Notes under the pieces: model-generated
What the model saw: the letters and a program-made list of their open reading frames with translations, nothing else
What the model was told of the DNA's origin: nothing
Databases searched by the model: none
Position numbers and translations under genes: made by a program
Part shown: positions 5,995 to 44,197 of the stretch, in pieces
Layout: each line of letters starts with the position of its first letter
Numbering within the stretch: position 1 is the first letter of the stretch
Source of the DNA: Streptococcus pluranimalium
GTDB taxonomy: Bacteria > Bacillota > Bacilli > Lactobacillales > Streptococcaceae
Assembly (NCBI RefSeq): GCF_002953735.1
Contig: NZ_CP025536.1
Coordinates: 1,742,001 to 1,806,000, forward strand
Direction: 5' to 3'
Length of the DNA stretch: 64,000 nt

Positions 5995-6007
5995 ATATGT
6001 TTCCTTC

Positions 6008-6041
6008 AAAAAAACACCCCATGGTGTGAACCATGAAGTGT
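6008..6041 (-). terminator. orphaned native rpsI terminator
   Basis: On the minus strand an interrupted stem (ACAC..CATGGT / ACCATG..GTGT, 6014-6041) is followed by seven T. It lies just outside the left 74-bp rpsI repeat, where the terminator of the rplM-rpsI operon would be before the element inserted. It no longer serves rpsI. Confidence 0.6.
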
Positions 6042-6046
6042 CTTGA

Positions 6047-6120
6047 AACGTTGATATATCGCTGATAATTAACGTTTTGAGAATTGTGAAGCTTTACGAG
6101 CTTTCTTAAGACCTGGTTTT
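6047..6120 (-). repeat. left attachment site: 74-bp copy of the rpsI 3' end
   Basis: Identical over 74 bp to 17106-17179. The right copy includes the last 17 codons and stop of rpsI plus 22 bp downstream; this left copy is a displaced fragment with no gene attached. Identity stops sharply at both edges. This is the signature of site-specific integration into the 3' end of rpsI. Confidence 0.9.
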
Positions 6121-6220
6121 GGGTGATAAAAGTCAAATAGCTGTAAAAGGCTATTAAATCAAGCTTTTAAAGCCCATTTTCATTACAAATAGATGCTTTT
6201 AACCCAATCTTACAAATAAG

Positions 6221-6240
6221 AGATTACCATTAGATTACCA
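6221..6240 (+). repeat. candidate integrase arm-type sites, left end
   Basis: AGATTACCA occurs twice (6221-6229 and 6232-6240), spaced 11 bp, 101 bp inside the left attachment site. The same 9-mer occurs twice in the same orientation near the right end. Arm-type repeats on both att arms are typical of tyrosine integrases. Confidence 0.55.
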
Positions 6241-6341
6241 AAAATCTGTTTTCGGAGCTTATGTAGTTAAGAAACAATGTGTATTCACTTTACTTTTTTG
6301 TAAGTTCATTTTATAATGTATATACAAACGGAGGTAGAACC

Positions 6342-6563
6342 ATGAATGTTATCTTGAGAAAAACAGGAAATAGTACTGTCATTACAATTCCCAATAAAAT
6401 TAAAGAAACTCTTGGAGCAGAAATTGGAGAAGAAATTGAATTTGTCACTTCAGGAAATAACGTCATCATTCGTAAAGCTGAGCCAAAATTTGATTTTGAT
6501 AAGGAACTAGAAAAAGCCATGAACCAATACGATGAGCTTTTGAAAGAATTGGTGGATAGATGA
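6342..6563 (+). CDS. SpoVT/AbrB-type antitoxin
   Basis: A 73-residue protein with a swapped-hairpin AbrB/MazE-type DNA-binding domain (ILRKTGNSTVITIPNKI, residues ~4-20). The C-terminal half (KFDFDKELEKAMNQYDELLK) is acidic and helical, as in antitoxin tails that wrap a toxin. The start at 6342 follows a GGAGG site; a longer frame from 6279 lacks one. Its TGA overlaps the ATG of the toxin gene, so the pair is translationally coupled. Antitoxin and autorepressor roles are inferred. Confidence 0.78.
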   Translation: MNVILRKTGNSTVITIPNKIKETLGAEIGEEIEFVTSGNNVIIRKAEPKFDFDKELEKAMNQYDELLKELVDR

Positions 6564-6967
6564 GATATCTAACTGCTGAAGATATTATCAAAATCAATGT
6601 CATGGTTATTGGCAAATATTCTCCTAATGAACCTGTTGGCATTGCTGATCCAAACAGTCTTCGAATGATTGTTGAACAGCCTAAACAAGAGATTTTCGGC
6701 AAAGTTCTCTATCCAGATATCTACAGTAAAGCTGCTATTATCTGGATAAATTTGATTAAAAAACATCCTTTTTATAATGCCAATAAACGAACTGCTGTTC
6801 TTGCCTTGCATATGTTTCTAGCAATGAATGGTTACCAATCCAATCTTTCCTTACAGGATGGGCTTGAAAAGACAGTTGAAATTGCTACCTTTCAAAGAGA
6901 TTTTGAAGATTTAAAGAAAACAATTATTCAATTCCTCAAGCAAGATGGAAACATAACAAAATTATAA
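6560..6967 (+). CDS. Doc-family (Fic fold) toxin, death-on-curing type
   Basis: A 135-residue protein with the Fic/Doc motif HPFYNANKRTA (residues ~73-83), matching Doc HxFx(D/N)xNKR. Doc of phage P1 phosphorylates EF-Tu; Fic relatives AMPylate targets. Which applies here is not visible. The length suits Doc (about 126 residues). The partner is an AbrB-fold antitoxin rather than Phd, so this is a mixed-type module. Such pairs often stabilise islands, which fits the position next to the left att site. Confidence 0.8.
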   Translation: MRYLTAEDIIKINVMVIGKYSPNEPVGIADPNSLRMIVEQPKQEIFGKVLYPDIYSKAAIIWINLIKKHPFYNANKRTAVLALHMFLAMNGYQSNLSLQDGLEKTVEIATFQRDFEDLKKTIIQFLKQDGNITKL

Positions 6968-7010
6968 TTAAAAAGTGATTATCAGCCTTTCGTTGAAGAC
7001 CACTTTTATG

Positions 7011-7184
7011 TTCTATTGTATTCTACTGTATTCTACTGTATTCTACTGTATTCTACTGTATTCTACTGTATTCTACTGTATTCTACTGTATTCTACTGTA
7101 TTCTACTGTATTCTACTGTATTCTACTGTATTCTACTGTATTCTACTGTATTCTACTGTATTCTACTGTATTCTACTGTATTCT
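7011..7184 (+). repeat. 10-bp tandem array, 16 perfect units
   Basis: TTCTACTGTA is repeated 16 times without error (7021-7180), preceded by one variant unit (TTCTATTGTA, 7011-7020) and followed by a partial TTCT. The array lies between the toxin gene and the convergent ATPase pseudogene. The unit contains TACTGTA, a half-site palindrome around one base, repeated once per helical turn. The array is open in two frames (YSTVFYCILL repeats), but there is no ribosome site. Confidence 0.95.
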
Positions 7185-7211
7185 TTATTACTAATAGTAT
7201 CCTGACTGCAA

Positions 7212-8646
7212 TCATTTATCAACTAAAAGATAATATTGATTGCGGTCATTTTTACTTGATCCAAACCAAGTAATGATTTCTAAATCACGAAGATGATGTA
7301 ACATTTTAACAACAAATGCTCGACTTCTTCCTGTTAATTCAATCGCCTTTGCTGTTGTCATTTTATCACCAGAATTATACATGTAGTGAACGATAGCTTG
7401 TTCATCAGCATTTAGAGTTCCAAAATCAAAAAACTGTTTTTCCAAACTGTCTCGTGTTCGTAGATGTCGACTAACAATGCTATTTTCAAGGATTAGAACT
7501 ACCTTATTACCTGGCTCTGAATATTTAGGTTCATGAAGAAAAGCTGATTCCATTTCAGAATAGATACGCTTAACACCCTCGTTCATTTCACGAACCCAAC
7601 CAAATTCAGTCAGGGTTCTCGCAATCCAAGGATTTCTTGAAAAACGTTCATGCTTGATATTGTCAACGGTGACGATATTGGGTAATTTCCCTGGGCTGTG
7701 AATCTCTAAGCGATCATCGAACATGAGTACACGAATGTGATCTCCATAGACAGAGTAATCACGGTGAGTTACTGCATTGACAACACCTTCAAACCAAGCA
7801 AACTCAGGATATTCAGGCAATATTTGAAATTGACCATTATCGTCTAAGTACTGAAATTCCCGCAACTGAGTACGGATAAAATCTCGAACTTTTATAATCA
7901 GTACTGGCAAAGCATCATCAAAAGTCACTTCTTTGATGACATTAAAGCTACTGCCTGTCCCCATATCCGTGCCATCAAACCTCTGGAAGCGAACACGAGC
8001 TTGCGGGAAGAATGCTGACGGATACTTTCCAAAAAGCAAAATAGCGGCTTTAGTCAATTTTCCATTAACCAAAAAAACGTCTAGCTTTGAGAATTTCCTC
8101 TGTGGAGCGCTCTGATAAATCAAAGTGACTTTTGAAATCCTGTACGATAGATTCATCAATATCTTCCAGACTGGCGTCTGGCACCACTTCATCTTCAAAG
8201 AAACGTTGTCCCTTGTCATAGCTGAGCTGAGTGCGTTGCTCGTAGCTCAACTTGACTGTTTCATTACCCTGACGAAGATAAACATCATCATTTGGTGCTG
8301 CAATCACACGATTTGATGACAATTCCACAGAGATAACTAAAACGAAATCTTCTTCACCCTTATGATTGATTACAGGGATTTCCTCAAAGGATAAATCTAA
8401 AGGAGTCTCACGCATCTCACGGTCAATCTTTTTGAAATCGTCTATGGGATAAGCCCTGCCGTCCTTGAAACCAGTGATAATATTTTCCTGTTTCTCGTCC
8501 TCAATACCAATAACCAGTTGACCGCCATCCGCATTGGCAAAAGCAATCAAGTGCTGAAGCAATTCCTGAGGCTTTTTGCGCGCTGATTTTCTATCCAAAT
8601 ATTGACTCTCTGGTGAGAATTGGTAGTGGAAGAGGGTTTGATTCAT
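7212..8646 (-). pseudogene. AlbA_2/Schlafen-type ATP-binding protein, frameshifted at an A7 tract
   Basis: The N-terminal half (start ATG 8646, AAGGAG upstream) carries an AlbA_2/Schlafen-type domain (ARKKPQELLQHLIAFANADG, VIGIEDEK). The C-terminal half has a GHKL-like ATP-binding segment (EGVVNAVTHRDYSVYG, LEIHSPGKLP) and a winged-helix end. The halves lie in different frames. The switch falls at seven A on the plus strand (8071-8077); removing one restores ..KARRFLVNGKLTKAAILL.. and gives about 478 residues. It is a homopolymer mutation, sequencing error or slippage site. The gene is last in a minus-strand operon, 45 bp after the ImmA/IrrE gene. Confidence 0.82.
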
Positions 8647-8691
8647 GTATTGCTCCTTAAACAAATAAAAGAGTTAATTAAAATCTAGGGC

Positions 8692-9849
8692 TTATAAAGT
8701 CCCACCTTTTAACTGAACAATATTATTTCTATCTTGAAATAATCTCTCCCTTGGAATATCCATGAGCTCTGAGAGGATTTCTATAGGAAGAGGATAACCG
8801 TATTTTAGATTAAATCGCTGTACGATCGATTGCTTCTCAAATAAGCCAGCATCCGTTAATAATTTATATGCTTGTTTAGCAAGGATTGGTCGTGGCACCG
8901 GAACGCTTGCATCCTCAGGTTCTTCTCTTCGCCAGCCTCTGGCACTCATTCTTTTTTGTAAGCGAGTATATTGTTCCGATGTCAGTAAATTTAAATCCTT
9001 GGCACGGTAGACCATACTAGCTATAGACACATTCCATTTTGACTTCAATTTTAAATAATGTCCAAGATCTTCTTCATGACCTTTTATATCTTTAGAAAAG
9101 GCAGAGGCAGGTAACAGAAAACTGGAAGCAAATCTATTAGCTTCTTGCTCCATTTTTCTATATTCAGTATTGGATAATTCTTGTGGATGTACTATTTGAG
9201 CATGCAAAGCCCAATGCCCTAACTCATGAGCTAAGCTAAACTGTTGTCTAAAAAAATTATTATTATCTTGATCAATTAAAATACAGTAGTACCGTTCAGA
9301 ATTTGCTCCTGTTTTCAATTCAACAAAACTTCCAAAAGCATCTACTTTTTCAGACCTTGAATTAATTATTGCAATATGAAAACCGTGTGTTTCTAGTAAC
9401 CTTAGAACACTGAAAATTGGTTTGTCACCTAATCCCCAATTCTCTCTTATCTGACTAGCCACCTCCTCAGGCGAGGCATTTTCTCGGCTTTCAAATTCTG
9501 CTAATTTGGGGAAATCAACATAATCTTCAAAAAAATTTGCCAAGAGTGCCAATGCTTTTTTTAACATCTCACTGGACTTCTTCTCTGCTTGTGAGGAGGT
9601 TAATTTACTCCTATAAAAAGTCCCAAAGTCACTAGTCAAAAATTTATCTTTTGTTTGATAATATGACAATGGAAATCCTAATTCAAAAATTATTTTTTGC
9701 AATACTTCTGAGCTCGGCTTCGATAAATTTTTTTCGTATTTAGAAATCATTTGCTTAGAAACTCCAATATTATCTGCCAATTGGCTAATTGAATACTGTC
9801 TAAAATATCTTGATTCTCGTAGTCTATCCCCATTAAATTCTTGAACCAT
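8692..9849 (-). CDS. XRE-ImmA/IrrE metallopeptidase regulator
   Basis: A 385-residue protein. Residues ~8-60 form an XRE helix-turn-helix (SISQLADNIGVSKQMISKYE). Residues ~150-290 form an ImmA/IrrE (DUF955) zinc-peptidase domain with the HELGH motif in SLAHELGHWALH (~210-221) and a downstream EQEANRFASSFLLP helix. ImmA-type enzymes cleave repressors to derepress mobile elements or stress genes; the target is unknown. Its ATG overlaps the upstream stop codon (TAATG), so it is coupled to the 77-aa gene. It is central to a four-gene operon. Confidence 0.85.
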   Translation of the reverse strand: MVQEFNGDRLRESRYFRQYSISQLADNIGVSKQMISKYEKNLSKPSSEVLQKIIFELGFPLSYYQTKDKFLTSDFGTFYRSKLTSSQAEKKSSEMLKKALALLANFFEDYVDFPKLAEFESRENASPEEVASQIRENWGLGDKPIFSVLRLLETHGFHIAIINSRSEKVDAFGSFVELKTGANSERYYCILIDQDNNNFFRQQFSLAHELGHWALHAQIVHPQELSNTEYRKMEQEANRFASSFLLPASAFSKDIKGHEEDLGHYLKLKSKWNVSIASMVYRAKDLNLLTSEQYTRLQKRMSARGWRREEPEDASVPVPRPILAKQAYKLLTDAGLFEKQSIVQRFNLKYGYPLPIEILSELMDIPRERLFQDRNNIVQLKGGTL

Positions 9850-10082
9850 TATAAAATTCCTTTTAATTTGGATTTCAATGTGACAAGCTGAGGCTCATCA
9901 ACTGAATTATTAACCTGCTCATCATGTATAACTTCAGTTGTAATTGTACCAACCGAACTTGGAAGTAATTGCGAAACATCTGCAGAACTAACCAATAAAA
10001 ATTGTGGGGTGTAGTCTGCTAGTGAAGCACTTACAGCCTCCTGACCTACATAATCAACAACCAAAAATCTAATCTTAGTCAC
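9849..10082 (-). CDS. hypothetical 77-aa protein of the ImmA/IrrE operon
   Basis: Not recognised. A longer frame reaches 10115, but it would overlap the previous gene by 29 nt. A GTG at 10082 has a GGAGAGG ribosome site about 10 nt upstream and begins 5 bp after the previous stop, so it was preferred (VTKIRFLVVDYVG...). The N-terminal third is hydrophobic and beta-rich; the rest is polar. Tight spacing on both sides (5 bp, then a 1-nt overlap) suggests a stoichiometric complex with its neighbours. Confidence 0.6.
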   Translation of the reverse strand: MTKIRFLVVDYVGQEAVSASLADYTPQFLLVSSADVSQLLPSSVGTITTEVIHDEQVNNSVDEPQLVTLKSKLKGIL

Positions 10083-10086
10083 TATA

Positions 10087-10554
10087 TCACAGTCCTCTCC
10101 AAGCATCCTCGTCAAATCTGCTTCTTTTCAATTCAGAATTATCAGTATCAAAAAGAGATAACTGTTTCACTTCCTGTTCAGGGTAAAGCCCCTCATTTTT
10201 TAAGAGCAAACTTAAAGAATAATGGGTAGAAATTCCTTTTTTAAAATATTGATTACGAATTGTCCTAAAATTATTTTTTGAGAAGAATGCTATTAATTCA
10301 CCCGTCTCAATATTTAGTATCGGATCAAATTGCCAAATCCCCCTCTTGATATGCAAAACTTTCCAAATACTACTATTTTTAAATAAGTCTCGTAGCATAT
10401 CTGATCTTCGTCCCCAAACATTCTGAAAAATTCCATTTTGACTTGTTTCTGAGATAGCAGCTTTAAAATCCTGCTCAAGATTTCTAGTAGTAAAGCTCAT
10501 TACATCTAAACACTTAGCAATAACTTCCTTGTCAAAATCATTAGTCTGATTCAT
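10087..10554 (-). CDS. hypothetical 155-aa protein, first gene of the ImmA/IrrE operon (possibly DUF5986)
   Basis: A soluble protein with no signal or membrane segment. The middle (NVWGRRSDMLRDLF, residues ~46-59, then IWKVLHIKRGIWQFDPI) looks like a small nucleic-acid or regulator-associated domain. I recall similar proteins (DUF5986) next to ImmA/IrrE genes but cannot confirm it. It starts at an ATG behind GGGGTG and heads the operon 155 aa - 77 aa - XRE/ImmA - AlbA ATPase. Function unknown. Confidence 0.6.
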   Translation of the reverse strand: MNQTNDFDKEVIAKCLDVMSFTTRNLEQDFKAAISETSQNGIFQNVWGRRSDMLRDLFKNSSIWKVLHIKRGIWQFDPILNIETGELIAFFSKNNFRTIRNQYFKKGISTHYSLSLLLKNEGLYPEQEVKQLSLFDTDNSELKRSRFDEDAWRGL

Positions 10555-10616
10555 CTATTCACCCCAATTCATTTGTTATTTTAAAGTCATTATAGCAGAT
10601 AAAAGGGACAAAAAAC

Positions 10617-10658
10617 AAGAAAAACCACCACAAAAGTCAACCGTTTTTGTGGTGGTTT
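10617..10658 (-). terminator. terminator downstream of the R-M operon
   Basis: A perfect 14-bp stem (10622-10635 with 10645-10658, AAACCACCACAAAA) with 9-nt loop is followed on the minus strand by a T-rich tract. It lies after the fossil C-terminus at 10664. Confidence 0.85.
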
Positions 10659-10663
10659 AAAAA

Positions 10664-10800
10664 CTACCCCATCTCCTTCACTTTACTTTCAATAAAGGCA
10701 ATTTCATCATCTGAAAGTCCTTATTTTCGATAGAGTTACCCGTCTAACTCAGCGATTGATTGTGACCAATCAATGTCCGAATTCGACGTTTCCTCTATTT
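10664..10800 (-). pseudogene. fossil C-terminus of a second Eco57I-type methylase
   Basis: Directly after the stop of the 1454-aa gene, another minus-strand frame reads EETSNSDIDWSQSIAELDG, stop, LYRK, stop, GLSDDEIAFIESKVKEMG, stop. The two internal TAA codons sit where CAA (Q) and TAT (Y) would be expected. It aligns with the live C-terminus (IDWSKSVEEIERQLYYYF..), so it is a decayed paralogous end. It suggests an earlier exchange of the 3' part of the gene. Confidence 0.7.
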
Positions 10801-13800
10801 CTAGTCCATTCTTCTAACATTCGCTTTCAGTTCAGCAATAATATTGTCTGGAACATTAAAATAATAATAAAGCTGTCTTTCAATCTCTTCAACCGACTTC
10901 GACCAATCTATTTGAGAATAATCATTAAAATCAAACCAAGGAACATTGCTCCAAACCTCTTTCGATTGATTGTGTTGAGTTACCTTGAGTGTTCCTAGCA
11001 TCGCACGAGCTATATCTGTTTTGATGTACTTCCAACAGTTTTCAGCTTCCACTTCAGTATCAAATGCACCAAAAGAAATAAAGGTTTGTGTATGACCCAC
11101 GAGTGGGGTACCCACGAGTGGGGTCGATAGAACTTCGCCTATCGCCCCACTTCCGTTGGAAGCGGGTAAAAACACTTTGTATTTATTCAGATTAGGATGT
11201 TCTTCAATTAAATCGCTATCAAGCCAATTTGTAACACGCTCATTATTGATACGTCCGTATATCCCAATTTGATTATCTGATTGTTTTTTATCCGAGAATA
11301 TCTCTGGTAGTTTCTCGAAAATATTTGATCCAATCGATTTTTCTTCTGCTAAAGAAACTCTTCCCTTCAATTCTGGATAACGATTGTAAAGGCTACTACT
11401 AAATTTATAACTACTCTTACCATAAAGATATTCATTAAACGATTTCTTAACTTTATTGCGTACTAAATGCAACAAGTCATTTAGCCATTCAATCGGTGTG
11501 AAGGTCTCAATAGCACCAAAGTTTTGATTAACATCCCGATAAGTAACGGCTACCCCACCCTTGATATCTGTATTTGGAAAGACTTCTTCTGATTTTTGAG
11601 CGAAGTAAACCACTTTAAGATGTTCGTCTTCTAACATTTTCTGATTCCATACCTTTGGAGTCTGACCAGCATTAAAGAGAAAACGAGCTGGTGTAATCAG
11701 AACTGCCTTATCTGCGACTTCATAAGCTAAATCCATAAATTTATGATAGATTGGCTCGTCACGGGCTACCTCTCCAACTCCTTCATTTTGATACGGAGGA
11801 TTTCCAATTACTACATCAAATTTCACGTTTCTAAATGCCTCCTCCACTTGAGTTTTTCCTTTGTCTAGGTCTGTTTTTAGGGTATCCGTTAGGTTTTCAA
11901 TATAGGTTACATTGGTTTTGTAATTCCGATAACCGGTCAATGTGCGTTCGGTGATGGTTTTTGCCATTGGTGTTTTCGCAATAGCATAGATATTATTTGC
12001 TAAAATCTCTTGATAGACCTGGTCAGCTTCAAAATGATTGTCATCATTTGCCGCCACTCTTTGATAATACAGGCTAATAGCACTGTGAAGAGGATAAAGA
12101 CCAGTCTTCGAGTTAATATCTAAGATCTTTGTTTCTTTTTGATAGATGGATGATGTGACATCATTTTCTACCCAGTGTAGGTTTGAAGTCGCTCCATCTG
12201 TTACCGACTCAAAATTATCATCATAGAAATTCAAGCCACCTACTGATTTTATCACTTGAAGATTGACTACACGCCACGGTGTCAGCACCGTTTCCTTATC
12301 AGGATTTTTGAAGGTGCCAAATAGCTCTGCGATATGCTCTGCACGTTCGATAAAGTCCATGTCATCAAAGGACTTGGCACGTTGGCGGATGATGCGCCCA
12401 GCCTCAATGAAGACCTCCGCATCATAATACTTGGAAATTTCACTAAACATTCCCTTAGTGAAACCTTTTGGCATGAACTCTTTCCACGATTCATCATCCA
12501 CCTGCTTGATAAAGTCTTGAATGGTAATATCTTTTGATAAATCGACCGCCATGCCGTAAATCATCATTGGAATACGGATAGAAACCCCGCGTAAAATAGA
12601 AATCATATTCTTACGTTGTTTCTTAGCTTCGTTTTGCTTTTCGATGGCTTCTAGCTCTTCTGGTGTCCGTTTGGCTTTTGGTTTCTTCTTGGCTCGCTCA
12701 GCTTGCTCATGCTCTTCAGTTGTCAATCCATTTTCATTGATTACAACTTTTTTAGGTGTTTTTTGACTCTGTGTCTTACCAACGATAGCATTTAGTTTGG
12801 TAAACATGCTTGCATCATCAGCGGTTAAAGTTAAAAGATTGTCATTATATAGACTGTCATCTTCGAAACCTGACCGCACTGCCTTTTCAGCATAAACTTT
12901 CTTGAGCTGTGTCAGCATTCTATCCACATCGTAGGTCTTCATTCCATTGTCTGAAGCCCCTAAGATTGGCATAAAGTTTAGAAGACGAGCCATAGCTTGC
13001 TTTTGTGCTTGCGTATTTTTCTTCCCTACACCTGAGTTAATCTGAGCACTCTCCGCCATGACAGTCAGGGCTCTATCAGGAGCAAAATCAAAGACATAAC
13101 AATTTGTCTTCATTCCCAATTTCTCATGAGAAAAAGGCGTCTGAGCACGAAAGGCAGCTTGTAGGTAATTCATGGCACTATTGGTATTTGACAAAAACAA
13201 GACCGCTGTCCACTCTGGGATATTAATACCTGTAGTTAGTTTACGAACCGTCAGGGTAATCGTTTTTGTCTGCGAAGGGTCTTTACCAATAGCAGAACGA
13301 ACTTTCTCTATGTCCGCATCGTTAGCAATTCCATCATCGCTACTTGCTCCTCGAACAACATTAACAATTTTATATTCTTTCCCGAAAATAGGGTGTTCTT
13401 TAAGCAAGCCCTCAAAAGCATTAGCTTCCTTAACACCTGGCATGAGCCAAAGCGTATGACGCAACTCTTCACGATAAGACTTCGTTGAAAAAGGGTAGTT
13501 CGTACGACTATCTGAATGTGTGATATTATCTAAGAATTGGCGAACCTCTTGCTTATAAACAAGTTGGCCATCCTCAGCCACACGGAAAAATTCCCTAAAG
13601 TTGAACGATTTACTCTCATCAGAAAAACGTTCCTTATGCTTCATTTCAAAAGTGTACATCGATACTTTTGGCAAAGTTTCATAAGGATTTGGCTCACTTG
13701 GACGTTCTAATTCCCACTTCTTCTTGGCCTGTTGTTCCATGACATAGTCCCAAGTATAAACTTGCTCCTCGTCAAATTGATCCAAAAGATTGAAAGGTGT

Positions 13801-15165
13801 CCCAGATAGTTCAAGTATCTTAGTATGTTCCTTGACGAGTTCTTTCATTACCGAATCACTAAGCTCTGTCTGGGTTCCCTCGTGCGCCTCATCAATGATA
13901 ATCAAATCCCAATCCATATCTGCAAAATCTTTCAGATTGGTTTGTCCGCCATTGTACCGAAGCAATTGGATTGAAGCGAAATACACAAAAGGTTTCTCAC
14001 CTCGCTTCAGATTTTCAAGCGTTTCTCCTTGATTGACTGAACCATAATCATACCCATCGGCGCTCATCTTCATTTTCTTGAAATCATCAAACCAAGAATC
14101 CGCCACAACAGGACGATGAGTCATGATGAGCACTCTTTGAAAGGCTTCATTCTTGACTAATTGCAAGGATGTCAGGGTTTTACCAAAACGCATTTTAGCA
14201 TTCCAGAGCATCCTATCTTTTTTCTTAAAGACTTTTTGCGTCTGCTCGACCGCTGCCTCTTGTTCTGGACGAAGGGTGATAGCTGGTTCTTCAACAAATG
14301 ATTCTTTGGCAGTAATATTTAGATAATTTCTACCTTCTTTAACAGCTTTAATAGCATCCTTAGCTGTCTCTAAATCCGTCTTGAACCACTCTGTTCCTTC
14401 CAGTTGTTCAGCCTGTTTAATCCCTGAACGCTTCAAGACATTATGCACATCATAATCATGGAACCAAGATTTTGTCGACTTTTTATAAGCAAGTTCTACC
14501 CACCCAAGTGTATAGGGCAATCCTGAAGTTTTCATATATTGATTGATACGTTTCGGTGCAACTGCTCTTAAGAAATCACTATTAGGAGACCAGTCCGTCT
14601 CAATATCATCCGAAGAAACGCTACCTTCACCAATTTTTTGTGTACCTTCAAAAGCATTGAACAACACACTTTGATTATCAACCGTCTGAATATAAATAAA
14701 TTTTCTTTCAGCAGTTCGGTACATTTCTTGTGCCCTTGGTTCTAAGAATCGACCAATAGCACTTGCTTTAATATCTGGATTGATATAAGTCAACATGACC
14801 CAAGCAAGAATATCAAACACCTGTTCTAATGATTTTAAAGCATTCTCTTTGGTTGCATCTGCTGGATTTAAAATATGAGCAGAATTATTCCCTTTTCCCT
14901 TGATATCATAAAAGTGATCGACGATTGTTTTATTGGGAATAAAGTCTCTTATCTCTCTTAGTACGTCATTAAAGGTGGCACGTTCACGAATATCTAAATA
15001 TTCTCTATCGGCAACCAACCTCGCTGTATTCTCAGCAACTTTTCTTACCTTAATTAGCGTGCCTTCATAGTCTCCGTGTGTATAATTTTCTTCAGCCATA
15101 TTTATGGTTCTAAAAAGCTCAGCTGTATCCATATCAATTGCCAAAAATTCAAAATTTGAAATCAT
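10801..15165 (-). CDS. single-chain restriction-modification enzyme: DUF4145 / GIY-YIG-like / SF2 helicase / Eco57I-type methylase
   Basis: A 1454-residue protein. Residues 1-130 resemble DUF4145, common in Type I restriction subunits. Residues ~155-270 fit a T5orf172/MUG113 GIY-YIG nuclease pattern (KFIYIQTV, QKIGEG, RINQYMKTSGLPYTLGWVEL, LEGTEWFK). An SF2 helicase follows: motif I NAKMRFGKT (322-330), DEAH (425-428), LSGTP (453-457), motif V TTGINIP (644-650), motif VI region LQAAFRAQ (668-675). Residues ~810-855 are charged. The N6-adenine methylase has a degenerate motif I (ILDINSKTGLYPL, 1014-1026) and NPPY (1122-1125). The C-terminal ~220 residues are the presumed target-recognition domain, with a TPLVG duplication at 1348-1357. 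It starts 3 bp after the partner gene. Confidence 0.85.
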   Translation of the reverse strand: MISNFEFLAIDMDTAELFRTINMAEENYTHGDYEGTLIKVRKVAENTARLVADREYLDIRERATFNDVLREIRDFIPNKTIVDHFYDIKGKGNNSAHILNPADATKENALKSLEQVFDILAWVMLTYINPDIKASAIGRFLEPRAQEMYRTAERKFIYIQTVDNQSVLFNAFEGTQKIGEGSVSSDDIETDWSPNSDFLRAVAPKRINQYMKTSGLPYTLGWVELAYKKSTKSWFHDYDVHNVLKRSGIKQAEQLEGTEWFKTDLETAKDAIKAVKEGRNYLNITAKESFVEEPAITLRPEQEAAVEQTQKVFKKKDRMLWNAKMRFGKTLTSLQLVKNEAFQRVLIMTHRPVVADSWFDDFKKMKMSADGYDYGSVNQGETLENLKRGEKPFVYFASIQLLRYNGGQTNLKDFADMDWDLIIIDEAHEGTQTELSDSVMKELVKEHTKILELSGTPFNLLDQFDEEQVYTWDYVMEQQAKKKWELERPSEPNPYETLPKVSMYTFEMKHKERFSDESKSFNFREFFRVAEDGQLVYKQEVRQFLDNITHSDSRTNYPFSTKSYREELRHTLWLMPGVKEANAFEGLLKEHPIFGKEYKIVNVVRGASSDDGIANDADIEKVRSAIGKDPSQTKTITLTVRKLTTGINIPEWTAVLFLSNTNSAMNYLQAAFRAQTPFSHEKLGMKTNCYVFDFAPDRALTVMAESAQINSGVGKKNTQAQKQAMARLLNFMPILGASDNGMKTYDVDRMLTQLKKVYAEKAVRSGFEDDSLYNDNLLTLTADDASMFTKLNAIVGKTQSQKTPKKVVINENGLTTEEHEQAERAKKKPKAKRTPEELEAIEKQNEAKKQRKNMISILRGVSIRIPMMIYGMAVDLSKDITIQDFIKQVDDESWKEFMPKGFTKGMFSEISKYYDAEVFIEAGRIIRQRAKSFDDMDFIERAEHIAELFGTFKNPDKETVLTPWRVVNLQVIKSVGGLNFYDDNFESVTDGATSNLHWVENDVTSSIYQKETKILDINSKTGLYPLHSAISLYYQRVAANDDNHFEADQVYQEILANNIYAIAKTPMAKTITERTLTGYRNYKTNVTYIENLTDTLKTDLDKGKTQVEEAFRNVKFDVVIGNPPYQNEGVGEVARDEPIYHKFMDLAYEVADKAVLITPARFLFNAGQTPKVWNQKMLEDEHLKVVYFAQKSEEVFPNTDIKGGVAVTYRDVNQNFGAIETFTPIEWLNDLLHLVRNKVKKSFNEYLYGKSSYKFSSSLYNRYPELKGRVSLAEEKSIGSNIFEKLPEIFSDKKQSDNQIGIYGRINNERVTNWLDSDLIEEHPNLNKYKVFLPASNGSGAIGEVLSTPLVGTPLVGHTQTFISFGAFDTEVEAENCWKYIKTDIARAMLGTLKVTQHNQSKEVWSNVPWFDFNDYSQIDWSKSVEEIERQLYYYFNVPDNIIAELKANVRRMD
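11095..11124 (-). repeat. 15-bp tandem duplication inside the target-recognition domain
   Basis: ACCCACGAGTGGGGT occurs twice back to back (11095-11109, 11110-11124). It is in frame and encodes TPLVG TPLVG at about residues 1348-1357. Copy-number change would lengthen or shorten the domain by five residues without breaking the frame. Confidence 0.9.
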
Positions 15166-15168
15166 AGC

Positions 15169-15864
15169 CTAATCTCCTAGTAAATACACTTTTTGAATGT
15201 TTATTTCTTCTACAACTACCGCATTTCCAACAATATCATCCTCTAATTTAAATTCATCATCTATATCAAAAAAACTCAATTGTCCTTCCACAATAGTCCG
15301 ATCATCTTCAACATCTTTACCTAAAAGCTCTGATAATGCAAAAGGAATTTTCCTTACCAAACTAGGATGACCTTTGACAAGCTGCCATTCATTAAACCAA
15401 ATAGGTTCTCCTGTAACAGGATGTTGCTGAGTCAAGGTATTTCCTCTAACAATATTTTTATGGATAAGATAGTGAGCAGATTTATAAATATCACTCTTAC
15501 TAGTCAGTTTGACACCAAAAGTTCGCTCATACCAATCTAAATAATACAGAAACATTCGTGAGCGTGCGACTTCTAAATTATCTTCTAGAAATTCAATACC
15601 GTAAATGGAAGAAAGAGCTATTAAAGATTTCGTCTTCCAGTTGCGTTCGTCATACTGTTCCACCACAGTGGCTAACTTTCTCTCTAAAATAGCTTGTAAA
15701 AAATTCCCATCTCCAGCAGAAGGTTCTAAAAATGTTGCGGATATATTTTCGCAAGCCTCTTTAACACCTGGCGTGTCTAGCATTTTTTGAACCATCCAAG
15801 ATGGCGTAAAGACTTCACCATGCTTTTGCACACGTTGTTTTGATTTGATTAAGTTCTCTTCCAA
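15169..15864 (-). CDS. DNA methylase-like partner protein with SAM-binding motif only
   Basis: A 231-residue protein with the N-terminal features of N6-adenine methylases: GEVFTPSWMVQKML (motif X-like, residues ~16-29), FLEPSAGDGNFL (motif I, ~45-56) and YGIEFLEDN (motif II-like). No catalytic (D/N)PP(Y/F) is present, so alone it should not methylate. Motif IV lies in the next gene's product. It may be a regulatory or DNA-binding partner, or half of a split methylase. The start is TTG (15864) behind AAGGAG; a TATAAT promoter lies 36 bp upstream. Confidence 0.75.
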   Translation of the reverse strand: MEENLIKSKQRVQKHGEVFTPSWMVQKMLDTPGVKEACENISATFLEPSAGDGNFLQAILERKLATVVEQYDERNWKTKSLIALSSIYGIEFLEDNLEVARSRMFLYYLDWYERTFGVKLTSKSDIYKSAHYLIHKNIVRGNTLTQQHPVTGEPIWFNEWQLVKGHPSLVRKIPFALSELLGKDVEDDRTIVEGQLSFFDIDDEFKLEDDIVGNAVVVEEINIQKVYLLGD

Positions 15865-15899
15865 AACCTACTCCTTGAAACCGTTTATCTTCTTTTCTT

Positions 15900-15928
15900 A
15901 TTATACCATTTTCTAACTTTATCTCGAA
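15900..15928 (-). promoter_or_regulatory. promoter of the R-M operon
   Basis: On the minus strand, extended -10 TGGTATAAT (core 15900-15905), 17-bp spacer, -35-like TTCGAG (15923-15928). It fires toward the TTG start at 15864. Confidence 0.6.
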
Positions 15929-15939
15929 CTATTTCTCAA

Positions 15940-16130
15940 AGGGTCTGGGGATTCTCCCCAGATATTAAAAATATCAGGAAAAGTGTCAGTTCGACCGTTC
16001 CTGATGTTTTATTTATTGCGATAGTGTGTATACACTATCTGAGCTCGCAAAGACCTAAAATTATGTTTTTGTATCAATTCTAAATTCCCCGTGCCAGACA
16101 CGGTAGCTGACATTGTCAGACAATCATTTT
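15940..16130. other. intergenic cluster of inverted repeats (possible oriT or regulatory region)
   Basis: Within 190 bp between the R-M promoter and the MobC-like gene there are at least five dyads: TCTGGGGA/TCCCCAGA near 15945-15963, ATCAGGAA/TTCCTGAT (15971-15978 with 15995-16002), GATAGTGT/ACACTATC near 16020-16040, CCGTG/CACGG near 16090-16104 and CTGACA/TGTCAG near 16107-16120. No ORF with coding character is present. Proximity to a MobC-like gene makes a nicking origin possible. Confidence 0.45.
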
Positions 16131-16144
16131 TTAGAAGGACATAA

Positions 16145-16172
16145 GAAAACCGCAGATAAATTCCTGCGGTTT
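16145..16172 (-). terminator. terminator of the MobC-like gene
   Basis: A 9-bp stem AAACCGCAG/CTGCGGTTT (16147-16155 with 16164-16172), followed on the minus strand by a short T tract, 11 bp after the stop codon. Confidence 0.7.
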
Positions 16173-16183
16173 CATTTACTTAT

Positions 16184-16465
16184 TTAATGTTTAGTAGACT
16201 TCTTTTTCAGGTTAACTGAGAGTCCCTTTTCCAATTCATCCAATAATTGAGTTATCAACTGACCAAGTTCTATAAAATTCTGTTGTGAAATATATCCAAC
16301 CTGAGTTGACAACTTGGCAATCCCATTAATTGATCTGCCAATCTGAATGAATCGCTCTGTCAGTTGCTCATACTCTGGAAAATTAATCGTCCATGATTCA
16401 ATCTCTTGGTTAAATAATTTCTTTCTGGCAAAAGCGGAAAAGTTTGACTCTTTTTCATTAGCCAT
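16184..16465 (-). CDS. MobC-like mobilisation accessory protein
   Basis: A protein of about 93 residues. The C-terminal two thirds (ERFIQIGRSINGIAKLSTQ, then GQLITQLLDELEKGL) follow the MobC pattern of a conserved 'IG.(I/N)N.IAK' helix and a long amphipathic helix. MobC proteins assist a relaxase at oriT, but no relaxase is visible, so it may be a leftover of an IME. An upstream TTG (16477) overlapping the previous stop codon would add four residues and couple it to that fragment; ATG 16465 is the conservative choice. Confidence 0.5.
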   Translation of the reverse strand: MANEKESNFSAFARKKLFNQEIESWTINFPEYEQLTERFIQIGRSINGIAKLSTQVGYISQQNFIELGQLITQLLDELEKGLSVNLKKKSTKH

Positions 16466-16470
16466 TAATG

Positions 16471-16600
16471 CTAACAATCGTTATATCTATCCGCAATCAC
16501 TTGCAAAAGGGAATAATACTCTGGTTTGAGATAAGTTGTTGACTGATCTTCTGTCTCTCTAGAACAATTATCTAGCATACGCTCTATATACCTTGATGAT
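16471..16600 (-). pseudogene. truncated upstream partner of the MobC-like gene
   Basis: The minus-strand frame ending at 16471 reads SSSRYIERMLDNCSRETEDQ and onward to ..QVIADRYNDC, and its stop overlaps the next gene's possible TTG start. Upstream of about 16600 the same DNA encodes integrase on the other strand, so only the C-terminal ~43 codons can be original. Probably a remnant cut when the integrase fragment was joined. Family unknown. Confidence 0.35.
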
Positions 16601-16987
16601 GAAACCTGTTCTATCCTCAACAAATGGAAACAGGAAACTAGCAGAGAAAAGTGGCAATTATCAGTACAGCCTCTTTCTCTCGACAAAGAATTTATGTTGA
16701 CATACTGCAACCGAGATGGTGAGATAGAACCCTTACACGCTGACTACATCAACAACATTCTCAAGCGAACCATTCGTCAACAAAATCTCAAGAAAATCAG
16801 CCCACATGGGTTTAGACACACTCACGCAACCTTGATGATTGAAATGGGAATTGACCCAGTCAATACTGCTAAACGCTTAGGCCATGCAATCAGCCAGATG
16901 ACTTTAGAAACTTATAGCCATGCCACAAAAGCTGGTGAAAAACAATCCATTACAAAATTCGCAGAATACCTCGATAAAGCTAAATAA
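16547..16987 (+). pseudogene. tyrosine integrase, C-terminal fragment
   Basis: An open frame from 16547 (no start codon near its beginning) reads SIRSIYLDDETCSILNKW and continues into a catalytic domain. It has the HGFRHTHATLMIE box (His-x-x-Arg), LGHAISQMTLETYSHAT (second His and nucleophilic Tyr) and a typical basic end. About 140 codons remain of an expected ~380-400. The arm-binding and core-binding domains and the first catalytic Arg are missing, so it is inactive. It sits 118 bp from the right att site, the usual place for an integrase. Confidence 0.88.
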
Positions 16988-17029
16988 CCTTAGCTTTCTT
17001 TTTCCACTAAAATTTAACCAGGTCTTAAG

Positions 17030-17050
17030 AGATTACCAAAAAGATTACCA
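17030..17050 (+). repeat. candidate integrase arm-type sites, right end
   Basis: AGATTACCA at 17030-17038 and 17042-17050, spaced 12 bp, 56 bp inside the right att site; same 9-mer and orientation as the left pair at 6221-6240. Confidence 0.55.
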
Positions 17051-17071
17051 AGCCCACTTTTCCATAAAAAA

Positions 17072-17102
17072 AAGCACTTTGCAAGAGACTTGCAAAATGC
17101 TT
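17072..17102 (-). terminator. element-supplied terminator for rpsI
   Basis: A 14-bp stem with one mismatch pair (17072-17085 with 17089-17102, AAGCACTTTGCAAG), 3-nt loop and a run of T on the minus strand. It lies immediately outside the 74-bp repeat, on element DNA, and replaces the displaced native terminator at 6008-6041. Confidence 0.75.
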
Positions 17103-17105
17103 GTG

Positions 17106-17179
17106 AACGTTGATATATCGCTGATAATTAACGTTTTGAGAATTGTGAAGCTTTACGAGCTTTCTTAAGACCTGGTTTT
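17106..17179 (-). repeat. right attachment site: 74-bp repeat containing the rpsI 3' end
   Basis: Identical to 6047-6120. It covers the last 17 codons and stop of the intact rpsI (52 bp) plus 22 bp beyond. The recombination core lies somewhere inside; integration rebuilt a complete rpsI. Confidence 0.9.
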
Positions 17180-17520
17180 TTACGTTCAACCATACGTGCG
17201 TCACGTGTAAGAAGTCCAGCGCGTTTCAATGAATCGCGGAAGTCTGGGTCTACTTGAAGAAGCGCACGTGCAATACCGTGACGGATCGCACCTGATTGAC
17301 CACCGTATCCACCACCGTTAACGTTAACGAAAACGTCGTATGAACCTTCAGTTGAAGTCACTGCAAATGGTTGGTTGATAACAAGACGTAGGTCTGCGTG
17401 TGGGATGTATTCTTCTACATCTTTTTGATTAACTGTGATTTTACCAGTACCTGGTACCAAACGAACGCGTGCAACCGCATTTTTACGACGACCAGTACCT
17501 GCATATTGTGCTTGTGCCAT
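17128..17520 (-). CDS. rpsI: 30S ribosomal protein S9
   Basis: A 130-residue S9 with the family core ([36 protein letters not shown]) and the basic C-terminal tail ending KASQFSKR that reaches the ribosomal P site. Full length. Its last 17 codons are supplied by the att repeat of the inserted element, so the protein is unchanged. It follows rplM by 26 bp in the standard L13-S9 operon. Confidence 0.97.
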
Positions 17521-44128: not shown

Positions 44129-44197
44129 AAACTAAAATCACTTAAAGTTTTATCAATAAGACAAAAAATAGACAATAGCAGTATCTTCCTTGTAATC
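44041..44197 (+). repeat. left copy of a ~157-bp diverged direct repeat
   Basis: Aligns with 48505-48663 from GATGAA to CTTGTAATC, about 80% identical in the first half and above 90% in the last ~73 bp. On the minus strand the last part reads DYKEDTAIVYFLSY then stop in both copies, with only synonymous changes there; this could be the end of an old gene such as a transposase. Both copies are followed by a hairpin terminator. Confidence 0.8.

Follow-up and report, generated by a model that had tools for sequence, protein, structure and literature searches.

What is the 11-kb block that lies at the 3' end of rpsI, the gene of 30S ribosomal protein S9, in Streptococcus pluranimalium, and can it still move? 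The block occupies positions 6047 to 17179 of the stretch analysed here, 64,000 nucleotides of contig NZ_CP025536.1 (assembly GCF_002953735.1, positions 1,742,001 to 1,806,000), which is called the window below; compared loci carry L numbers and genomes G numbers. Our answer, to which we assign a probability of about 0.68, is that the block is a decayed member, resembling a cis-mobilizable element (CIME), of a relaxase-less family of mobilizable defence islands that integrate into rpsI and mimic the origin of transfer (oriT) of integrative and conjugative elements (ICEs). The figure was lowered from 0.70, because the absence of a relaxase is based on two protein families and partial scans of open reading frames (ORFs), and because the counts of the oriT core are partly a product of selection.

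The frame of the island is a pair of 74-nt blocks with 100% identity (Table 1), which are the only two matches to the block in the 2.07-Mb genome and, within the window, the sole exact repeat of at least 30 bp with copies more than 1 kb apart, so that a chance origin is excluded. An exact repeat of at least 22 bp, with copies 4.5 kb apart at window positions 44155 and 48620, lies outside the island. The right copy holds the 49 final coding nucleotides of rpsI, the stop codon and 22 nt past it, and a strong terminator, the native one, adjoins the left copy; elsewhere in the genus, its sequence also trails rpsI, or a displaced end of that gene, in many genomes. The first-pass annotation had thus been right that the repeats are perfect, that the right one completes rpsI and that the left one is a displaced gene end. 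Distinct hairpins follow the two copies, and the insertion therefore leaves rpsI whole and supplies a new terminator. In seven other loci (L150, L157, L161, L177, L181, L184, L187) a native-like terminator follows both the rpsI end and the displaced copy, so some elements imitate the terminator of rpsI as well as its 3' end. The exact limits that had been claimed hold apart from the 74 bp themselves, inside which the crossover point cannot be located. The boundaries alone are those of an ordinary rpsI integration, because insertion at this 3' end with long repeats is already known for streptococcal integrative and mobilizable elements (IMEs) and CIMEs: the portions consulted of three papers describe rpsI as a site of IMEs and ICEs with long repeats (PMC5357655), as the site of IMESag-rpsI (PMC5090054) and as the site of CIME-containing composites (PMC7563491).

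Site-specific integration into the rpsI 3' end, as first annotated, is borne out; what had been overlooked is the decayed state of the island, the N-terminal part of its integrase being gone, and with it the integrase fragment itself, two frame-broken cargo genes and paired AGATTACCA sites at both ends. The fragment comprises 145 open codons and matches at 89% residues 249-389 of an open 389-codon frame in G012, whose integrase counts 384 aa from the first start codon of that frame. As residues 244-384 are all that remains of an rpsI-type tyrosine integrase in the window, excision circles are not expected unless such an integrase is supplied. The motif AGATTACCA occurs exactly four times in the 64 kb, with 0.64 expected and four reached in 1 of 100 shuffles, and its starts (6221 and 6232 at the distal end, 17030 and 17042 at the rpsI end) lie two inside each island end. 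Similar pairs at both ends, spaced by 11 nt distally and 12 nt at the rpsI end, were found in L199, L208, L209, L212 and L213; L205 and L211 have the distal pair and a single site at the opposite end, L152 and L173 the rpsI-side pair and a single exact site at the far end, and the other loci of a set of 17 linked to DUF5962 have sites at one end or none (none in L203 and L206), partly because the stretch stops. The pairs look like putative integrase arm sites. A second putative integrated element was seen outside the window (G000:C1:1954012-1956380, L266), where a 379-codon tyrosine integrase frame stands near a Rep_trans match; this integrase is only 23% like the rpsI type.

Segmental duplication or gene conversion as the source of the repeats, with homologous recombination rather than an integrase assembling the genes between them, is very improbable. 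Such an origin would suit S. suis 2187 (L080), G014 and G109, where the same restriction genes follow rpsI so closely that an integrase could not fit in between, but it is disfavoured by the integrase fragment, the arm-site pairs at both ends and the matching end structures of islands in other species.

Sixty rpsI regions from other species, a non-random sample picked from 117 matching genomes by similarity and extent of contig, were surveyed: a related integrase lies at most 700 nt from the rpsI stop in 35 and anywhere in the stretch in 38, and a displaced copy of the region's own rpsI end was found within the stretch in 15 at the threshold used. Nine of these regions and the 17 DUF5962-linked loci make up the 26 loci compared, most of which share one backbone order (int-HTH-Xis-replication-DUF5962-MobC-MobC, HTH standing for helix-turn-helix), followed by a variable slot and then by AlbA_2/RecG in many loci and MazE/Doc in some. 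Where both ends are seen, the islands measure roughly 7-18 kb. Of the 17, nine adjoin rpsI directly; eight lie beside a displaced rpsI end and are probably parts of tandem arrays. Five loci are off-pattern (L137, L144, L148, L164, L176), with no DUF5962 match in any of them and no MobC match in L137 and L144.

The extent of the decay is seen in comparison with L152 (G090) and L062 (S. alactolyticus FGM), to which the window aligns as far as 16499 and then again from 16578 or 16580, both relatives having an extra 3.3 kb with most of the integrase, the HTH repressor, a 94-aa HTH protein, a phage replisome organiser, a DUF5962-type protein and MobC-like genes. The window has lost about this length of backbone, including the integrase start, the repressor, the Xis-like gene, the replication gene and MobC-like genes, with three scraps left; the 34-codon piece of the replisome-organiser gene and the second MobC-like gene without its start imply at least two deletions. 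The integrase frame of L152 is itself broken. Compared with the G012 island, the left 1.03 kb of the window island matches the distal end at 94% identity, and the right 0.6 kb has 86%. The island keeps the repeats and the arm-like pairs, its predicted attachment (att) sites, and has no functional integrase and no functional conjugation or mobilization genes, as in a CIME; it is predicted to be unable to move by itself. L080, L146 (G014) and L147 (G109), whose restriction genes begin about 150-210 nt behind rpsI and which have no oriT core, are a separate, more complete decay.

The link to conjugation comes from the intergenic DNA at 15917-16183, which as a query matched islands and, over about 48 bp, sites elsewhere. 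Twenty non-island places were taken because of this match, so that the core is present there by choice: 19 have the form TTTGCGAGCTCAGATATTGTGTCCACAATATC, and L265 (G205) deviates by one mismatch, located in the nick box. The informative part of the set is the near-constant distance between core and relaxase, since in all 13 places with a relaxase ORF identified from its N-terminal motif (none was so identified in the other seven) the core lies 805-818 nt upstream of the relaxase start on the opposite strand. The ICE core TTTGCGAGCTCAGATATTGTGTCCACAATATC contains the inverted repeat GATATTGTG and the predicted nick CTCG/CAAA given for the oriT of ICESa2603 in the consulted portion of PMC4735348. 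The island form, TTTGCGAGCTCAGATAGTGTATACACACTATC or close variants, is present in 24 of the 26 loci as well as in the window; its dyad differs from that of the ICEs, while the nick box is the same. The 12-nt nick box is identical in 43 of 44 sequences, and the dyad arms pair at 8/8 positions in two and at 7/8 in four of the six variants, with changes on both sides. Across the genus, with at most one mismatch, the island type was found in 27 and the ICE type in 64 of 284 genomes, and the reversed-pattern control in none for either. By sequence match, then, both the window and the island family have an oriT-like core resembling the oriT of a putative helper ICE. Furthermore, the first island MobC-like protein matches all 20 ICE regions at 29-38% identity, and the gene that it matches in L246, L250, L251 and L254 is a small one immediately preceding that of the relaxase.

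A relaxase was sought by comparing the positions of relaxase-family matches with those of the islands by eye. PF03432 matched nothing within the islands when 25 genomes were searched (G119 not among them), PF02486 had no above-cut-off match inside the islands of 21 genomes (one sub-threshold match lies in the G127 stretch), and the MobV Pfam family, which was not run genome-wide, had none among the island ORFs tested. In the genome of the window there is no PF03432 match, and the sole PF02486 match is about 197 kb away; a relaxase of its own, as in IMESag-rpsI, was not found in the window. These results bear on the possibility that the island is simply the remnant of an ordinary relaxase-bearing rpsI IME or ICE of the IMESag-rpsI kind, with an oriT-like core that is not used. 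CIMEs are common in the rpsI composites of S. salivarius, for which the available part of PMC7563491 counts 16 composite islands at rpsI, and the integrase function is lost in the window. However, the tests made revealed no relaxase in relatives that share the ends and the backbone, and the core matches an ICE oriT that keeps a near-constant distance from ICE relaxases, which makes such a remnant unlikely.

The backbone also has a phage side. A degenerate satellite resembling phage-inducible chromosomal islands, transferred by capsids, would have an integrase, a repressor, an Xis-like gene and a phage-type replisome organiser much like those of the family; the replication proteins match replisome-organiser/DnaD-like PHROGs, and the Xis-like protein matches a small-terminase HTH family (PHROG) at E 6e-6. 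Yet none of the ORFs tested was assigned a packaging or capsid function (PHROGs were run on backbone genes only), and the MobC-like proteins and the ICE-type oriT point toward conjugation, so we consider a satellite improbable, more so than the IME or ICE remnant.

Several observations weigh against a family of defence islands mobilized through a mimicked oriT. The near-constancy of the nick box arises partly by construction, since the search motif contains the box, and the different dyad means that an ICE relaxase may reject the island oriT. The core is absent from L137 and L144, which are rpsI loci with related integrases, and is also found away from rpsI (e.g., in G115); among 13 loci checked, it was present in L062 only, and several of the 12 without it have the same restriction genes at rpsI. 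The absence of a relaxase is based on two families genome-wide and on Pfam searches of most L173 ORFs and of parts of L152, L172, L199, L208 and L211; a relaxase of a new type is possible, and the replication protein or DUF5962 could be one. Without PF03432 the genome of the window has no resident helper, and the island holders G074, G129, G175 and G078 likewise have no PF03432 match, with one match below the cut-off in G258. Finally, defence does not occupy the slot in every case: those of L140 and L204 look non-defence, since no defence query matched there and their ORFs, read by eye from the sequence, resemble a MerR regulator and a cation transporter.

A comparison with uninterrupted sites adds little. 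Across species, the predicted island-free junction aligns unbroken into the terminator in 35 of the 60 surveyed genomes, which is weak evidence for an empty site, because many of the 35 hold other rpsI elements that bring their own copy of the terminator; its continuity was therefore dropped as proof. By hand count, 17 of the 35 have no second copy, and six of the 60 (L143, L149, L151, L156, L185, L192) are also without a related integrase nearer than 13 kb in the stretch, which in L143 reaches only 4.5 kb. The ammonium-transporter-like gene on the left has a match in 26 of 118 genomes, that of the window included, and in none of the others, compared by eye, do it and rpsI share a contig at a distance of 60 kb or less. 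A close relative lacking the island did not turn up: among the matches listed, the left flank matched others over the terminator or weakly in the transporter gene.

From the anatomy, the decay, the shared backbone and the oriT match, all legible in the DNA itself, we infer the following mode of life, in which the function of the arm sites, the nicking, the transfer and the identity of the helper are conditional. In intact members the 384-aa tyrosine integrase would recombine an att site at the rpsI end flanked by the paired arm sites; a repressor, the Xis-like gene, a phage-type replication gene and mostly DUF5962 belong to the backbone, and two MobC/NikA-like proteins are encoded beside a putative oriT imitating that of Tn5252/ICESa2603-type ICEs. 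The island would excise, be nicked in trans by the ICE relaxase and leave through the ICE conjugation pore, carrying its swappable defence slot along. The islands thus probably spread by hitching on larger conjugative elements. The window copy, having lost some 3.3 kb of backbone in two or more deletions, keeps both att repeats, the putative arm sites, the oriT-like core and the cargo, and would be fixed unless it is provided with an integrase and a relaxase or gains a functional element as an integrated neighbour.

Each known kind of element shares only part of this picture. In the portions consulted of PMC5090054 and PMC5357655, the streptococcal rpsI IMEs with Tyr_4, Tyr_5 and Tyr_7 integrases, IMESag-rpsI among them, have the tyrosine integrase, the rpsI 3' end and tandem accretion in common with the islands, as well as long direct repeats (Tyr_4, Tyr_5), but they are defined by their own mobilization genes (a MobV relaxase in IMESag-rpsI), none of which was found in the island family; the window copy, moreover, has no whole integrase. 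The CIMEs of PMC7563491 likewise keep att repeats and cargo and have lost integrase and mobilization genes, whereas the window island retains an ICE-type oriT core; as far as the available text goes, the method used there found CIMEs only where they stood in tandem with an ICE or IME. MGI_SsaL22_rplL of S. salivarius, set beside the family by its description only, brings a tyrosine integrase of its own and lacks relaxase, coupling-protein and virB4 genes, but is integrated at rplL, and no oriT is mentioned in that same portion of PMC7563491. The Tn5252/ICESa2603-family ICEs (PMC4735348, in part) share the oriT nick box and dyad and the MobC homology; the islands differ in that no relaxase or transfer-pore gene was found in them and in the orientation of the genes around oriT. 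Relaxase-less islands with a helper-like oriT are known in Proteobacteria (PMC5704250): MGIVflInd1 and MGIVchHai6 have no relaxase and carry a helper-like oriT or a relaxosome accessory protein, but these are gammaproteobacterial and have MobH helpers, whereas the present family belongs to Streptococcus, would have a PF03432-type helper, and combines two MobC-like proteins and an oriT mimic with a defence slot. For Firmicutes, section 3.2 of the same review names only MTnSag1 and tISCpe8 as relaxase-less IMEs, their oriT resemblance being thought fortuitous. The searched literature, mostly titles and abstracts with few subscription papers, gave no description of such rpsI islands or of this oriT mimic, and the window island looks like a decayed member of a new streptococcal variant of relaxase-less islands that mimic a helper oriT.

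What does the island carry? As first annotated, most of the 11 kb is defence or toxin-antitoxin cargo: restriction genes, a RosmerTA-like pair, an AlbA_2/RecG-like gene and MazE/Doc fill about 9 kb. By its motifs, the main cargo is predicted to be a restriction system with a methyltransferase divided between two genes; one of its halves is fused to the helicase. The 1454-aa protein has an HsdR-like N-terminal part (Abi_C is listed for some homologues), helicase and Eco57I-type methyltransferase domains and the NPPY motif; motif I was not found in it by the expression used and stands, as FLEPSAGDGNFL, in the 231-aa neighbour. The latter aligns at 49% with the first half of the L095 protein, so the split sits between the motifs for binding S-adenosylmethionine (SAM) and for catalysis. 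The two halves form one gene of 599-714 aa beside a separate helicase gene in L095, L099 and L102, and make three genes with the helicase in L096, L098, L101, L103 and L104; the streptococcal form joins the catalytic half to the helicase in one protein. At L083:10001-15148 the gene order is reversed, the SAM-binding half following the helicase-methyltransferase gene. A GIY-YIG-like region in the 1454-aa protein is a suggestion only, from conserved residues and T5orf172 matches in two relatives below threshold (E 0.0016 and 0.0061); sequence searches against solved structures gave nothing useful.

The system is widespread: it was met at 45 loci of genome contigs, 89 plasmid records gave a match, which in 48 spans 80% or more of the query, and at least 8000 homologues were scored. 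Two annotated plasmid regions name it merely N-6 DNA methylase and Eco57I-domain protein, and a literature search under the phrase "split methyltransferase" gave no match, one on GIY-YIG with helicase a single listed paper. Type ISP enzymes are a restriction class that includes LlaGI and LlaBIII. They likewise unite helicase and gamma-type methyltransferase parts in one restriction enzyme, but as a single polypeptide (PMC3874165, in part), whereas the SAM-binding half in the window is a separate gene. The slot of L211 holds an ISP-type enzyme, itself seen as two ORFs, with CBASS-like genes. Other slots combine type I restriction with Thoeris (L173, L200) or with PrrC or a PrrC-like gene (L152, L205, L215), or the split-methyltransferase system with a YobI/Tmn-like ATPase (L172) or, as in the window and the decayed L080, with RosmerTA. 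The variable defence locus of S. suis lies between rpiA and trmE, not at rpsI, in the available part of PMC5398294.

The RosmerTA-like pair (the name is from the consulted portion of PMC11883136; RmrA and RmrT in PADLOC) has both genes adjacent, as in that system, but is not intact: the RmrA-like frame is open and the RmrT-like gene is frame-broken, as is the AlbA_2/RecG-like gene, each being one open frame in S. suis 2187. Between the latter gene and the Doc gene lie about 17 tandem copies of the 10-bp unit TTCTACTGTA (7011-7184), which may vary among strains.

Table 1. Features of the rpsI island and its borders in the window (aa, amino acids).
Positions	Strand	Feature	Basis
6007-6043	-	Native rpsI terminator, displaced together with the left copy	Hairpin analysis and genus comparison
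6047-6120	-	Displaced rpsI 3' end, distal att-side repeat	Repeat comparison
6221-6240	+	AGATTACCA arm-like pair, starts 11 nt apart, distal end	Motif count; like pairs in relatives
6342-6563	+	MazE-like antitoxin	Family searches
6560-6967	+	Doc/Fic toxin paired with the MazE-like antitoxin	Family searches
7212-8219	-	AlbA_2/RecG-like gene, frame-broken, second part	Single ORF in L080
8065-8664	-	AlbA_2/RecG-like gene, frame-broken, first part (Schlafen AlbA_2 domain)	Single ORF in L080
8692-9849	-	RmrA-like HTH-peptidase protein (RosmerTA)	E 1.2e-118
9849-10115	-	RmrT-like gene, frame-broken, second piece	Weak match, E 6e-4; single ORF in L080
10087-10554	-	RmrT-like gene, frame-broken, first piece (DUF5986)	Family search; single ORF in L080
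10801-15165	-	1454-aa restriction protein	HsdR-like N-terminal part, putative GIY-YIG-like region, helicase, catalytic (NPPY) half of N6A methyltransferase
15169-15864	-	231-aa SAM-binding half (motif I) of N6A methyltransferase	Motif search, alignment
16020-16051	-	oriT-like core: nick box TTTGCGAGCTCA and 8-bp dyad	Sequence search, ICE comparison
16184-16477	-	NikA/MobC-like gene without its first 21 codons relative to L152	Pfam match of the L152 protein below family cut-off
16477-16578	-	Scrap of phage-type replisome-organiser gene, residues 171-204 (34 codons)	Comparison with relatives
16562-16987	+	C-terminal fragment (residues 244-384) of rpsI-type tyrosine integrase	Comparison with G012
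17030-17050	+	AGATTACCA arm-like pair, starts 12 nt apart, rpsI end	Motif count; like pairs in relatives
17064-17102	-	Island-derived terminator-like hairpin and T-run behind rpsI	z -2.7
17106-17179	-	rpsI-side att repeat, completes rpsI	Repeat comparison
17128-17520	-	rpsI (30S ribosomal protein S9), intact	NF001099

A wider proposition, for and against which we see even odds, is that such islands act throughout the genus as streptococcal "defence shuttles": relaxase-less rpsI islands, with the imitated Tn5252/ICESa2603 oriT and MobC-like adaptors, would use ICEs as carriers and swap in their slot type I, type ISP and split-methyltransferase systems with Thoeris, CBASS, PrrC or RosmerTA, the co-changed dyad being a specificity switch that recruits the island's own MobC together with the ICE relaxase. 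If true, a shared ICE-parasitic vehicle would account for the recurrence of defence genes at one site in many streptococci, and Tn5252-type ICEs would also move phage defence that they do not encode. The arrangements of the methyltransferase (undivided, divided over two genes next to that of the helicase, or with a half joined to the helicase itself) would offer a natural series for the linkage of restriction and modification, and the oriT mimic would make such islands searchable by a 32-bp pattern, some decayed ones without mobility genes included.

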